Assembly: GCA_028693565.1 (NCBI GenBank)
Contig: JAQUVE010000004.1
Coordinates: 1 to 46,004 of the forward strand
Direction of reading: 5' to 3'
Source: Sulfurospirillaceae bacterium
GTDB taxonomy: Bacteria > Campylobacterota > Campylobacteria > Campylobacterales > Sulfurospirillaceae
DNA: 46,004 bases
This document shows positions 18,607-23,711 of the stretch, one piece after another. The notes below the pieces were generated by a model. That model did no database searches. It saw nothing but the letters and a program-made list of their open reading frames with translations, and was not told where the DNA came from. The translations under genes were made by a program, and so were the position numbers. The number at the start of each line of letters is the position of its first letter. Positions within the stretch are counted from its first letter, which is position 1.

Positions 18607-19635
18607 ATGTTTCAAAAAGAACACCGCCAAAATACTCTCAATGGCATCTTATTCGTGGCCTTATTCGCCATGAGCGCAACTTACCTCTCAGACTTTCCAC
18701 TCTTTAAACATTTAGGCATTAGCCCTTTGATTATTGGGATAGTATTAGGAATGGTATATGCCAATACGCTTCGTAATAAGCTCCCTAAAGAATGGGTAGC
18801 AGGGATTATTTTTTCGACAAAAACAGTGCTTCGTACAGGTATCATATTATATGGATTTCGCTTGACTTTTCAAAATATAGAAACTGTTGGCTTAGCGGGT
18901 ATTTTTACCAGCATTATGGTTGTTAGCTCAACATTTGTCATCGGTTATTTTGTTGGCACGAAAATACTGAAACTGGATAAAGAAACAACCATTCTTACAA
19001 GTGCGGGAAGTTCCATCTGTGGGGCTGCCGCTGTTTTAGCGACAGAACCTGTGATCAATGCTGAAGCTTATAAAAGTGCCATTGCCGTTTCAACGGTTGT
19101 CGTTTTTGGTAGTATCGCCATGTTTTTATACCCTTTTGTTTACCATTTGGGAATTGTTCCTCTAAGCCCTGAAGCGATGGGGATGTATATTGGTGGAACG
19201 ATTCATGAAGTTGCCCATGTCGTAGCCGCTGGCAATGCTATCGGAAGCGAAACGGCTGAACCTGCTGTCATCGTCAAAATGATTCGTGTCATGCTAATCG
19301 CACCTTTTTTACTTGTTTTGGGCTTTTGGTTATCTAAAGCAGCACTGAAAGGTACGACAAAGCACAAAACAAAGATTAATATTCCATGGTTTGCTGTCTT
19401 TTTTATTCTCGTAGCAGGATTTAATTCATTTCACCTTTTACCAGACGTTGCTATTACCAAGATTAATGCACTTGACACTTTTTTACTGACAATGGCAATG
19501 AGTGCATTAGGGATGGAAACAAGTGTCAATAAATTTCAAAATGTCGGAATGAAACCTTTGTATCTTGCTGGAATTCTTTTCTTGTGGCTTATATTTGGAG
19601 GCTTTTATATCGTTAAATTGTCCCTTAATTTTTAA
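18607..19635 (+). CDS. yeiH: YeiH/UPF0324 family putative sulfate exporter
   Basis: A 342-residue polytopic membrane protein with about ten hydrophobic segments. Family motifs: PLIIGIVLGMVYAN, TGIILYGFRLTFQ, TSAGSSICGAAAVLATEP and GGTIHEVAHVVAAGNAIG. The family is annotated as sulfate exporter on weak grounds, so substrate is uncertain. It is divergent from a LysR regulator. Its last 11 bases overlap the end of the convergent radical SAM fusion gene. No other sulfur gene adjoins it, although a TauE/SafE-type permease lies at 23.7 kb. Confidence 0.88.
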   Translation: MFQKEHRQNTLNGILFVALFAMSATYLSDFPLFKHLGISPLIIGIVLGMVYANTLRNKLPKEWVAGIIFSTKTVLRTGIILYGFRLTFQNIETVGLAGIFTSIMVVSSTFVIGYFVGTKILKLDKETTILTSAGSSICGAAAVLATEPVINAEAYKSAIAVSTVVVFGSIAMFLYPFVYHLGIVPLSPEAMGMYIGGTIHEVAHVVAAGNAIGSETAEPAVIVKMIRVMLIAPFLLVLGFWLSKAALKGTTKHKTKINIPWFAVFFILVAGFNSFHLLPDVAITKINALDTFLLTMAMSALGMETSVNKFQNVGMKPLYLAGILFLWLIFGGFYIVKLSLNF

Positions 19636-21304
19636 CTAATCTCTCTCGATGGCGGGCTATCTCTTTATCGCTCCATACACCATAAGGATCACGATAGGCT
19701 ACACCTTCCATCTTTTCTTCTTTCTTCATTGAATGTTTTGCGACCAACCCGACAATATCCGTTTTTTCAATGATAACCTCTTCCACACAAAAACCTGCTT
19801 CAAGAAATGCTACATATACTGAGCGAAAAGAAGTTGAACAAATCAACACACCTTCTGGTTTGAGTAAGCAATAAAGCTTTTTTAAAAAATCCACGCTGAT
19901 TAAGGATGGATTATTACTCTCTAAAAAAGGATCTAGAAAAATGATATCAAACTGCTCATCTAAAAAAGTAATCGCGTAACGCGCATCAGCATTTAAAAGC
20001 TCTATTTTGACTTTAGCTTCATGAAAAATTCCTTTTTCATATAAATTTTTAAGCATTTTTACATGTAAAGGATCAGAAATGACTTGTGCGCTTTGTGCAA
20101 GTAGCATAAGATCATGTTCTATTGCACTAATATGTAAGGTGTAATGCTCCAACGTGCGTGCCTCATGAGATGCAGCAAAGCTATTATACCCCATGCCAAA
20201 ACCAATATCTAAAAGCCTTATATTTGACTTCTCAAGGCGCTTAATAAGAGACGATTTTAAGATAAATAATTGCCTTGCTTGTACTAAAGCTCCTGATTTA
20301 GGATGATAATAATCACTGTATTCTGAATTAAAAAAAGTCGTACTACCATCTTTTAATAGTATTTTTTGTCGCATTTCATTATTTTTTAGTTTTTTCAGTT
20401 CATATAAATCGCCTTGTGCTACTCCTCGTAAACGCATCGTTTTTACGAGGTAAGCACTGAAACTATTTTTATCCATATGCCAGTGTGGTGCTATTAAATC
20501 TTTACGTGGAGTGTCAGTTGCTAAACGTAAAATCGGTATTGTCGCAGGAATACGCCGCAATAAGTGTATCAATACCTCAGCATACTCATACTCACTTAAA
20601 GTATGAAAAGGTGTGGTAGCATAATGTTGCGCTAGAACAGTTTGTTGGATAATATGCAAATTATGAAACTTCAAACCATCAATGCCAAGTTGCACTAAGG
20701 CATCTACACTCTCTTGCCAGTGCGTCAATGTCTCATTCGGAAAGCCTACTATCAAATGAGCATAAACTTTAAAATTACGTGCATGTAATCTTTTAATCGC
20801 CTCTTGAGACGCGTGAGCATTATGCCCGCGATGAATCCATTCAAGTGTTGCATCATGCATACTTTGAATACCTAATTCGATACAAACATCTACTGTTTTA
20901 TTGAGCTCTTGCAAATAATCTAAGGTCTCTTCACTTAAACAATCAGGCCTTGTACCAATATGTATTGCTTTAAATGGATATATTGTTAGTAATTTTTCAT
21001 AGACTTTTTGTTGTTTTTTTAATGAAGAAAATGTCCCAGTATATGCTTGAATATAAAGAGCAAATGCTTTTGCATGGTAGCGTTTTCGCGCGAAAGCAAT
21101 AGCGTATTCTATCTGCTCTTCTAGACTTTTAGCATCTTTAGTCTGAGCTGCTCGCGCACCATCTTCGGGGCAAAAGGTACACCCACCCCTACCGTTAACA
21201 TCTCTATTGGGACATCCAAAGTTTAAATCCACGGGAATACTATACAGCGCTTCACCATAGTGTTTGAGCATATAATTTTTATACGTTGAAAAAGGGAGAT
21301 GCAT
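19625..21304 (-). CDS. Fusion of TIGR01212 radical SAM protein and MnmC-type methyltransferase
   Basis: 559 residues with two enzymes in one chain. Residues 1 to about 310 are a YhcC/YtqA-type (TIGR01212) radical SAM protein: cluster cysteines C31, C42 and C45 (NFGCPNR, GGCTFC), then IQAYTGTFS, IGTRPDCLS, ELGIQSMHD and IVGFPNET. Residues about 318-559 are a DUF752/MnmC-type methyltransferase: KDGSTTFFNSEYSDYYHPKSG, SAM motif LLDIGFGMGYNSF (364-376), FLDPF near 457-461, and the terminal YRDPYGVWSDKEI. MnmC's methyltransferase completes mnm5(s2)U at the tRNA wobble position, so the radical SAM half may supply the preceding step (inference). It overlaps the ygbA-like stop by TAATG. Confidence 0.9.
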   Translation of the reverse strand: MHLPFSTYKNYMLKHYGEALYSIPVDLNFGCPNRDVNGRGGCTFCPEDGARAAQTKDAKSLEEQIEYAIAFARKRYHAKAFALYIQAYTGTFSSLKKQQKVYEKLLTIYPFKAIHIGTRPDCLSEETLDYLQELNKTVDVCIELGIQSMHDATLEWIHRGHNAHASQEAIKRLHARNFKVYAHLIVGFPNETLTHWQESVDALVQLGIDGLKFHNLHIIQQTVLAQHYATTPFHTLSEYEYAEVLIHLLRRIPATIPILRLATDTPRKDLIAPHWHMDKNSFSAYLVKTMRLRGVAQGDLYELKKLKNNEMRQKILLKDGSTTFFNSEYSDYYHPKSGALVQARQLFILKSSLIKRLEKSNIRLLDIGFGMGYNSFAASHEARTLEHYTLHISAIEHDLMLLAQSAQVISDPLHVKMLKNLYEKGIFHEAKVKIELLNADARYAITFLDEQFDIIFLDPFLESNNPSLISVDFLKKLYCLLKPEGVLICSTSFRSVYVAFLEAGFCVEEVIIEKTDIVGLVAKHSMKKEEKMEGVAYRDPYGVWSDKEIARHRERLVKN

Positions 21305-21621
21305 TATTTCGAAAAAAACTTCCGCATCTTAGTAAGTCCCAATTGCATGCCGCTATACATCATAATTTTAGCCATTTTTTTCCACATACTTCGTTCATAG
21401 CAAGGTTTTGGGCATTTGCGACAACTAGGCTTTGGCTCATGAGGACAAGCGATTAAACGTTCATGTGCATAATGCAATAAGGCTTTGCACTCTTCACATA
21501 AATGATACTCTTCTACAAGAGAGCCTATTTCTTTGGTTTTATCGTGATGCTTTCGCTCACAATAAAGTCCTATAAAACGGTGTAAAATATGCATATTTTC
21601 ATGGAGTTTTTCTGTCGTCAT
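21304..21621 (-). CDS. ygbA: YgbA-like nitrous oxide-stimulated promoter family protein
   Basis: A 105-residue cysteine-rich protein of the family named for its N-oxide-induced promoter (PF11756, from memory). Conserved cysteines: YCERKH, CEECKALLHYAHERL, CPHEPKPSCRKCPKPCYE, then a basic C-terminus with MMYSGMQLG. The cysteines suggest a metal or Fe-S site. In E. coli ygbA belongs to the NsrR nitric-oxide regulon and aids growth under nitrosative stress. Here its stop overlaps the start of the tRNA-modification-like fusion, so the two are co-translated. NnrS is encoded 1 kb away. Confidence 0.83.
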   Translation of the reverse strand: MTTEKLHENMHILHRFIGLYCERKHHDKTKEIGSLVEEYHLCEECKALLHYAHERLIACPHEPKPSCRKCPKPCYERSMWKKMAKIMMYSGMQLGLTKMRKFFSK

Positions 21622-22493: not shown

Positions 22494-23711
22494 TTATACA
22501 ATTTTCTTTCCCCACATCAAAACGGGCCCATAATAAATACCCCAAGCGATAAATAAGATAAGCCACGCACTAATAGAAAGATCAAATGTCCATGCAGCAT
22601 TAATACTTAATCCGCTTGTAATAGAATACAAAACTCGAATAGCTAAAACAATTTGCGTTAAAACAAAAAGACCTACTGTGAAGCGATTGGCACGTGGAGG
22701 TTGACTTGAATGGCCTAGTGTCACACGTGTTCCAAATCCAATAAAAATAGTATTTAAAAACCCTAAGGCTAAAAGATGCGTATCAAGAGAAATAAAAGAA
22801 ACATCAAAATAAAGTTCACAACTTTTACCTATGGCCCCAAAAATAAGCCCCAAAGGTAACCAAAATAAGGCAAGATGCAAAATACTTAAAATCGCAGGTG
22901 AATTTTTCAATGGCAATTCCCATCGTAATAACTCTTTAAGAATGAAAAGACCCAATACGATATCAATCATAATTTCAAGCCATTCGAGTATCATAATAAT
23001 GGCTAATGCTTTCATCATAAACAAAGTAAAAACGATAGGAATTAATTTTGGTATTTTGTGAATTTGCACGTGTGAGAAGAAAGGAACCATGCGAAGTGCT
23101 ATCACTGTCGTTAAAAATATGGCATAGAGATAAAATCCAGTAGCATAAGCAATATCGTACCAATAAAATGGCTCTGTATAAGCATCAATAACAAATCCAA
23201 GCGCAAAAACACTATGTGCTAAAAGTCCAAATCCATAGGCTACTAAAATCCAAAAAGGATCTTTTTTAATATGGGACTTACCATGTTTATACATTTGGTA
23301 AAGCTGATAAAATGCACTTCCATGCAGGAGCAACAAAACACCAACGGAACAAAATAAAAGATCTTCGGATAAAAATAGACCTAGGACTACACCCAATGCG
23401 CCAAGTTCATATAAGAAAAATGTACGTAAGTAAAACTTTTTTGAAACCCCTAAACTCGCACAAAATCGAGGAAATGTTGTCAATAAAAAACCTAAAAAGA
23501 ACTGGCTAAAGACAATAAATACCAGCGAATATATATGAAAATAGATTGGACTAATCATTAAAGAAATCGTACCCTTAAAACCTAACATAAAAATAACCAT
23601 AGTGACAATGGCCCATATCACACCTAAAACAAAAAAAGGCTGGTGAGGTTGTGAAAGAAAATAGTTCTCTTGAGGTTTTTTTAATGGAGGTTGTGTGGTA
23701 AATTGCTGCAT
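22494..23711 (-). CDS. nnrS: NnrS family membrane protein
   Basis: A 405-residue protein with about 12 transmembrane segments. Family wording: HQPFFVLGVIWAIVTMVIF, LVFIVFSQFFLGFLLTTFPRFC, IALRMVPFFSH and GTRVTLGHSSQ. NnrS is a haem- and copper-containing inner-membrane protein that protects against nitric oxide and metal-nitrosyl stress in denitrifiers (family knowledge). It is the last gene of the nrnA-ribD operon, 12 bases after the TauE/SafE-type gene. The nearby YgbA-like protein supports a nitrosative-stress theme. Confidence 0.9.
   Translation of the reverse strand: MQQFTTQPPLKKPQENYFLSQPHQPFFVLGVIWAIVTMVIFMLGFKGTISLMISPIYFHIYSLVFIVFSQFFLGFLLTTFPRFCASLGVSKKFYLRTFFLYELGALGVVLGLFLSEDLLFCSVGVLLLLHGSAFYQLYQMYKHGKSHIKKDPFWILVAYGFGLLAHSVFALGFVIDAYTEPFYWYDIAYATGFYLYAIFLTTVIALRMVPFFSHVQIHKIPKLIPIVFTLFMMKALAIIMILEWLEIMIDIVLGLFILKELLRWELPLKNSPAILSILHLALFWLPLGLIFGAIGKSCELYFDVSFISLDTHLLALGFLNTIFIGFGTRVTLGHSSQPPRANRFTVGLFVLTQIVLAIRVLYSITSGLSINAAWTFDLSISAWLILFIAWGIYYGPVLMWGKKIV

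Follow-up and report, generated by a model that had tools for sequence, protein, structure and literature searches.

A radical-SAM (MnmL-type) protein fused to an MnmC2-type methyltransferase in Sulfurospirillaceae, a probable single-chain analogue of MnmC

A gene of a Sulfurospirillaceae bacterium joins, in one chain, an MnmL-type radical-SAM domain and an MnmC2-type methyltransferase. It lies on contig JAQUVE010000004.1, in the 46,004-nucleotide stretch that was analysed as a whole (the window), and its existence as a single fused gene is confirmed. What would such a protein do? It is probably a self-contained analogue of MnmC, in which a radical-SAM enzyme takes the place of the FAD oxidase and cmnm5U is converted into mnm5U; its substrate, product, reaction order and chemistry are all predicted. 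Each half is of a known kind and the MnmL role was already reported in 2024; joined in one chain, the two are met again across several phyla. The abstract of the 2024 report is said to mention fusion proteins and, reportedly, leaves the chemistry of the MnmL step unresolved. The radical-SAM/MnmC2 fusion itself may already be noted in Jaroch et al. 2024. Its presence across phyla is evidence in favour of the MnmL step as recently proposed, and with both activities on one chain the two steps could be assayed in a single protein.

The reading frame comprises 559 codons, starts with ATG and has no internal stops, while the plus strand of the same interval is interrupted by many stops and is non-coding (Table 1). 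A preliminary description, made from the sequence of the window, had read a single 559-residue chain without giving its strand, and the frame bears this out on the minus strand. The same description had raised the worry of a frameshift that really separates two genes. Could assembly or frameshift errors have joined them? Nothing was found that speaks for an artefact, though the source genome is a draft assembly split into 232 contigs. The closed chromosomes of the isolates S. diekertiae JPD-1 and S. cavolei UCH003 carry the identical one-frame architecture, as do many independent assemblies, which rules out an artefact and leaves it a vanishingly small probability. A phage origin was rejected as well, as no phage record reaches 80% coverage of the fusion protein. 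Across sixteen orthologues aligned over their full length, identity to the window protein is 45-58% and the C31/C42/C45 motif is kept. In close Sulfurospirillum pairs dN/dS stays well below 1, at ~0.05-0.13 in the radical-SAM half and ~0.13-0.25 in the faster-evolving methyltransferase half, and thus indicates constraint on the two.

Table 1. Coordinates of the fused gene, its parts and its upstream neighbour in the window
Feature	Position	Strand	Basis
Fused gene, radical-SAM (MnmL-type) + MnmC2-type methyltransferase, 559 aa	19625..21304	-	ORF, Pfam, NCBIfam, AlphaFold model
TIGR01212 radical-SAM half, residues 5-302 (Radical_SAM 40-202, Radical_SAM_C 208-290)	20399..21292	-	Profiles; Elp3-like fold, Z 25.0 to 8asw_C
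[4Fe-4S] cysteine motif C31-x10-C42-x2-C45	21170..21214	-	Kept in at least 97% of 86 TIGR01212 sequences
D264	20513..20515	-	Common to MnmM-linked MnmL; aligns with Elp3 Asp; Gly/Ser in YhcC and stand-alone Campylobacterota paralogue
Interdomain linker, residues ~294-313	20366..20425	-	Lowest pLDDT block, 63
MnmC2/DUF752 methyltransferase half, profile residues 325-509	19778..20332	-	Profile; Z 28.8 to Aquifex MnmC2 3vyw
SAM-binding loop, residues 366-374 (DIGFGMGYN)	20183..20209	-	Gly66-Gly70 loop of E. coli MnmC is conserved here
D458, corresponding to Asp178 of E. coli MnmC (SAM amino group)	19931..19933	-	Alignment; role from PMC3648344
YgbA_NO family gene (ygbA), Cys-rich, directly upstream of the fusion	21304..21621	-	PF11756

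The domain content agrees with the preliminary description, which had proposed a YhcC/YtqA-type radical-SAM domain joined to a DUF752 methyltransferase and had placed the three cluster cysteines at their correct positions. Pfam recognises Radical_SAM (E-value 2.8e-15), Radical_SAM_C (5.9e-21) and, at residues 427-509, Methyltransf_30 or DUF752 (4.3e-13); PF05430 scores 49.7 bits, with a cut-off of 22. The NCBIfam model TIGR01212, named 'MnmL/YtqA' by NCBI, scores 252.5 bits, above its cut-off of 180. The MnmC2 model NF033855 gives the fusion 83.4 bits against a cut-off of 136, which does not exclude an MnmC2 because a fragment of the biochemically proven Aquifex MnmC2 scores only 106.8 bits. 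Neither the FAD oxidase domain MnmC1 (TIGR03197; Pfam and NCBIfam) nor the MnmM domain PF06962 (Pfam) was matched in the fusion protein. A structure prediction of the two-domain chain, proposed as a check in the preliminary description, was obtained with AlphaFold2 from an alignment of 38 fused sequences; the model (mean pLDDT 92.4, pTM 0.91) consists of an Elp3-like and an MnmC2-like half. Structural re-alignment of Foldseek matches placed residues 278-559 on Aquifex MnmC2 3vyw (Z 28.8, 4.3 Å over 253 residues) and residues 17-302 on Elp3 of the yeast Elp123-tRNA complex (Z 25.0, 3.0 Å over 277 residues), Elp3 being the closest fold of the radical-SAM half. Elp3 acts on C5 of the wobble U34. 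The fused protein was rejected as an Elp3 itself, with 58.7 bits against the ELP3 cut-off of 350 and no GNAT domain.

But which kind of TIGR01212 protein is the radical-SAM half? Membership in this family turned out to be insufficient for an assignment to YtqA/MnmL: the TIGR01212 model gives YhcC of E. coli 473 bits, although this species has a full MnmC. The database name MnmL, given to the whole of TIGR01212, spans at least two subfamilies. Because the model also takes in YhcC, it is subfamily residues and genomic associations that the MnmL assignment draws on. In the sequence alignment, fused and MnmM-linked proteins have G49 and D264, whereas YhcC and the stand-alone Campylobacterota proteins have Ser49 and Gly/Ser264. 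The fused half thus appears to be MnmL-like, as it has both residues in common with MnmM-linked proteins and not with YhcC. Asp at position 264 is probably ancestral, since D264 pairs with an Asp in the Elp3 alignment. In the radical-SAM tree (support values here and below are SH-aLRT from a short search) the fused Campylobacterota proteins form one clade (99) within a mostly non-Campylobacterota clade (98), apart from the MnmM-linked Bacilli MnmL, whose sequences were taken from plasmid-labelled records, and from the clade of YhcC and stand-alone Campylobacterota proteins (98). The fused clade is therefore a branch of its own, not nested with Bacilli MnmL, although its residues at positions 49 and 264 are those of MnmL. 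The source genome encodes a second TIGR01212 protein (G000:C230:42045-42974, also L087:5034-5993; 319-320 aa), which has Gly at the D264 position and is YhcC-like and not obviously redundant with the fusion.

The source genome has both MnmE (385 bits) and MnmG (845 bits), and the fusion is its only MnmC2 match. A full MnmC elsewhere, which the preliminary description had named as an observation that would speak against its proposal, was looked for in the genome and no MnmC1 was found over the TIGR03197 cut-off, the best match having 44.8 of 174.2 bits. This best match is an L-2-hydroxyglutarate oxidase and was rejected as a hidden MnmC1. A scan of 73 Campylobacterota genomes, the source included, gave no MnmM, with Bacillus and Lactococcus controls positive, and MnmM was rejected as the partner methyltransferase.

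How widespread is the fusion? All 19 genomes examined (the source genome included) from the window's genus, which named loci put at Sulfurospirillum, have a TIGR01212 match in an open frame of 550-600 aa, and those frames that were read through are the fusion. It is also present in Arcobacter/Malaciobacter, Sulfurovum and Helicobacteraceae MAGs and, outside Campylobacterota, in Kiritimatiellota, Lentisphaerota, Verrucomicrobiota, Cloacimonadota, Margulisbacteria and Planctomycetota; both halves occur in one frame in 46 of the 80 loci examined. The methyltransferase tree unites the fused Campylobacterota proteins in one clade (100), grouped with other fused sequences (99). The trees of both halves fit joint inheritance of the two domains and transfer of the fusion among phyla, with any direction and number of transfers to be read tentatively.

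The preliminary description had expected the fusion and the MnmC oxidase domain to be anti-correlated, with the oxidase replaced by radical SAM. The anti-correlation is clean in Sulfurospirillaceae, with no MnmC1 match above 60 bits in 13 of 13 tested genomes with the fusion, and in carriers outside Campylobacterota, with none above 70 bits in 16 of 16 (MAGs of uncertain completeness). It is broken, however, in six of the eight other Campylobacterota carriers (G234, G264, G289-G292), where a stand-alone MnmC1-like oxidase occurs in addition to the fusion, so that the oxidase is not replaced in every carrier. Where the two coexist, as in genomes of the Arcobacter and Sulfurovum types, the fusion might serve as a second route that is independent of oxygen. 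Among the 73 Campylobacterota genomes, 61 have MnmC2 and all 61 have MnmC1 or a TIGR01212 protein; the five with neither are all without MnmC2 (Fisher p 5e-5, ignoring kinship; n=73). In L202 and L203, genomes of genus g2 in the same family, an MnmC1-like oxidase stands alone, with neither MnmC2 nor a TIGR01212 match over the cut-off.

How might the two halves work together? Fusion of the radical SAM to MnmC2 itself suggests that they share a substrate. MnmE and MnmG would place cmnm5 on the tRNA wobble U34, and the radical-SAM half would reduce SAM to a 5'-deoxyadenosyl radical, which would abstract hydrogen from the carboxymethylamino group. The carboxymethyl part would then be released, most simply via an imine and its hydrolysis, giving nm5U34, whose free amine the C-terminal MnmC2 half would methylate to mnm5U34. 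Assigning the cmnm5U-to-nm5U step to the radical-SAM half, as already proposed from the fusion, is the best-supported reading given the published MnmL role and the lack of MnmC1 in the source genome, even if TIGR01212 membership is insufficient by itself and the oxidase is sometimes kept.

The methyl acceptor is the least secure part of the proposed role, because three otherwise conserved positions are changed while the SAM site is kept. The claim of a DUF752 methyltransferase stands in its fold and its SAM site: G368-G372, E396 and D458 correspond to the Gly66-Gly70 loop, Glu101 and Asp178 of E. coli MnmC (residue roles, including Asp178 with the SAM amino group, from PMC3648344), residue 396 being Asp in most fused relatives. 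The pocket, however, has diverged. E. coli positions E37, W189 and F/Y210, conserved in stand-alone and full-length MnmC2, are Q342, I469 and S490 in the window protein, and each of the 14 fused Campylobacterota proteins in the alignment has Gln, Ile/Val/Leu and Ser/Thr there; E. coli P182 is E462 in the window protein. Is the radical-SAM half then an MnmL whose partner no longer methylates nm5U34, either drifting or having gained a new acceptor? The altered positions, the faster evolution of this half and the separate MnmC2 found besides the fusion in Arcobacter-type genomes, G035 and G036 would all agree with that, but we consider it unlikely, as the SAM loop, the acidic residue 396 and D458 are retained, the dN/dS values of this half in Sulfurospirillum pairs, given above, indicate constraint and it is the only MnmC2-like domain found in Sulfurospirillum. 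Some relatives have a shortened methyltransferase half, and G035 has Asn at the D458 position. In the Lentisphaerota fusions L153, L156 and L162 this half is without the Asp-x-Phe motif, scores poorly and is possibly degenerate.

The doubt may also be directed at the other half, which could be YhcC-like in function, with the step from cmnm5U to nm5U falling to the stand-alone TIGR01212 paralogue, or skipped because MnmE/G use ammonium, an MnmC1-independent shortcut. E. coli keeps YhcC beside a full MnmC, a stand-alone YhcC-like gene directly precedes MnmC2 in several MnmC1-less genomes of family f2, and with a second TIGR01212 protein in the source genome the fused half need not be the only candidate. 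Yet the fused half has the MnmL-type D264/G49 signature absent from YhcC, its fusion to MnmC2 speaks for a common substrate, and two genomes of the same genus, G013 (a single contig) and G024, keep the fusion as their sole TIGR01212 protein over the cut-off, all of which makes this explanation quite improbable.

The predicted MnmC analogue resembles several known systems. MnmL (YtqA) of Bacillus and Streptococcus, with MnmM (YtqB), has the TIGR01212 domain, D264 and G49 and a proposed cmnm5U-to-nm5U step with a methyltransferase partner; MnmL and MnmM (PF06962) are separate genes, whereas the fusion is one chain with an MnmC2-type partner and lies on a separate TIGR01212 branch. MnmM methylates nm5s2U, which accumulates in its mutant, the oxidase-like enzyme being left unidentified in that work (PMC9976899). 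In its passage on the nm5s2U step, a 2025 review puts MnmL beside MnmC, citing its reference 33 (PMC12548931); Jaroch et al. 2024, J Bacteriol (10.1128/jb.00452-23), cited there and in PMC10965804, is taken as the source for MnmL. The link of YtqA to this modification, which the preliminary description had mentioned, fits the published role as given in those passages. Like MnmC of E. coli and Campylobacter, which is bifunctional with the order MnmC2-MnmC1, the fusion is predicted to take cmnm5U to mnm5U in one chain, and the MnmC2 halves are homologous (Z 20-22 to E. coli MnmC); unlike it, it has a radical SAM instead of a flavin oxidase and the reverse order, with the methyltransferase C-terminal. 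Stand-alone MnmC2 (DUF752) of Aquifex aeolicus, the best fold match (3vyw, Z 28.8), has the same SAM-site residues but is unfused and differs from the fused Campylobacterota form at the E. coli E37, W189 and F210 positions. E. coli YhcC, although a TIGR01212 member, has Ser at the D264 position and shares its branch with the stand-alone Campylobacterota paralogue, not with the fusion.

The gene neighbourhood adds a possible clue to regulation. ygbA overlaps the start of the fusion by one base and is directly upstream of it in most related Sulfurospirillum-group loci, but not beside fusions of other genera; NnrS is encoded at 22494-23711. NsrR targets ygbA in E. coli, where NO induces the gene (PMC5320621). 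The conserved upstream ygbA may point to a nitric-oxide link, and its co-regulation with the fusion is hypothesised. It is a long shot to go further and propose an oxygen-independent MnmC replacement spread among anaerobic phyla, which shares its regulation with ygbA during nitric-oxide or anaerobic stress and whose altered methyltransferase pocket takes a product different from plain nm5U; radical decarboxylation, for instance, as a direct reaction on cmnm5U, could already give mnm5U, and the methyltransferase half a different end product.

Elsewhere, the MnmL-type gene adjoins a YtqB-type class I methyltransferase gene in Listeria, Enterococcus and Anoxybacillus, lies directly before MnmA in the Spirochaete locus L167 and is next to QueH, another wobble-base enzyme, in L152. 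A YhcC-like gene immediately followed by a stand-alone MnmC2 was seen in one MnmC1-less Campylobacterota family, at L104:3397-5108, L105:3734-5408, L106:3735-5455, L027, L029, L036 and L046; this adjacency suggests that proteins of the YhcC branch, too, may have cmnm5U as a substrate. In a Kiritimatiellia locus (L151:2790-4400), QueH, a queuosine enzyme, is fused to the N-terminus of the MnmL-type domain.
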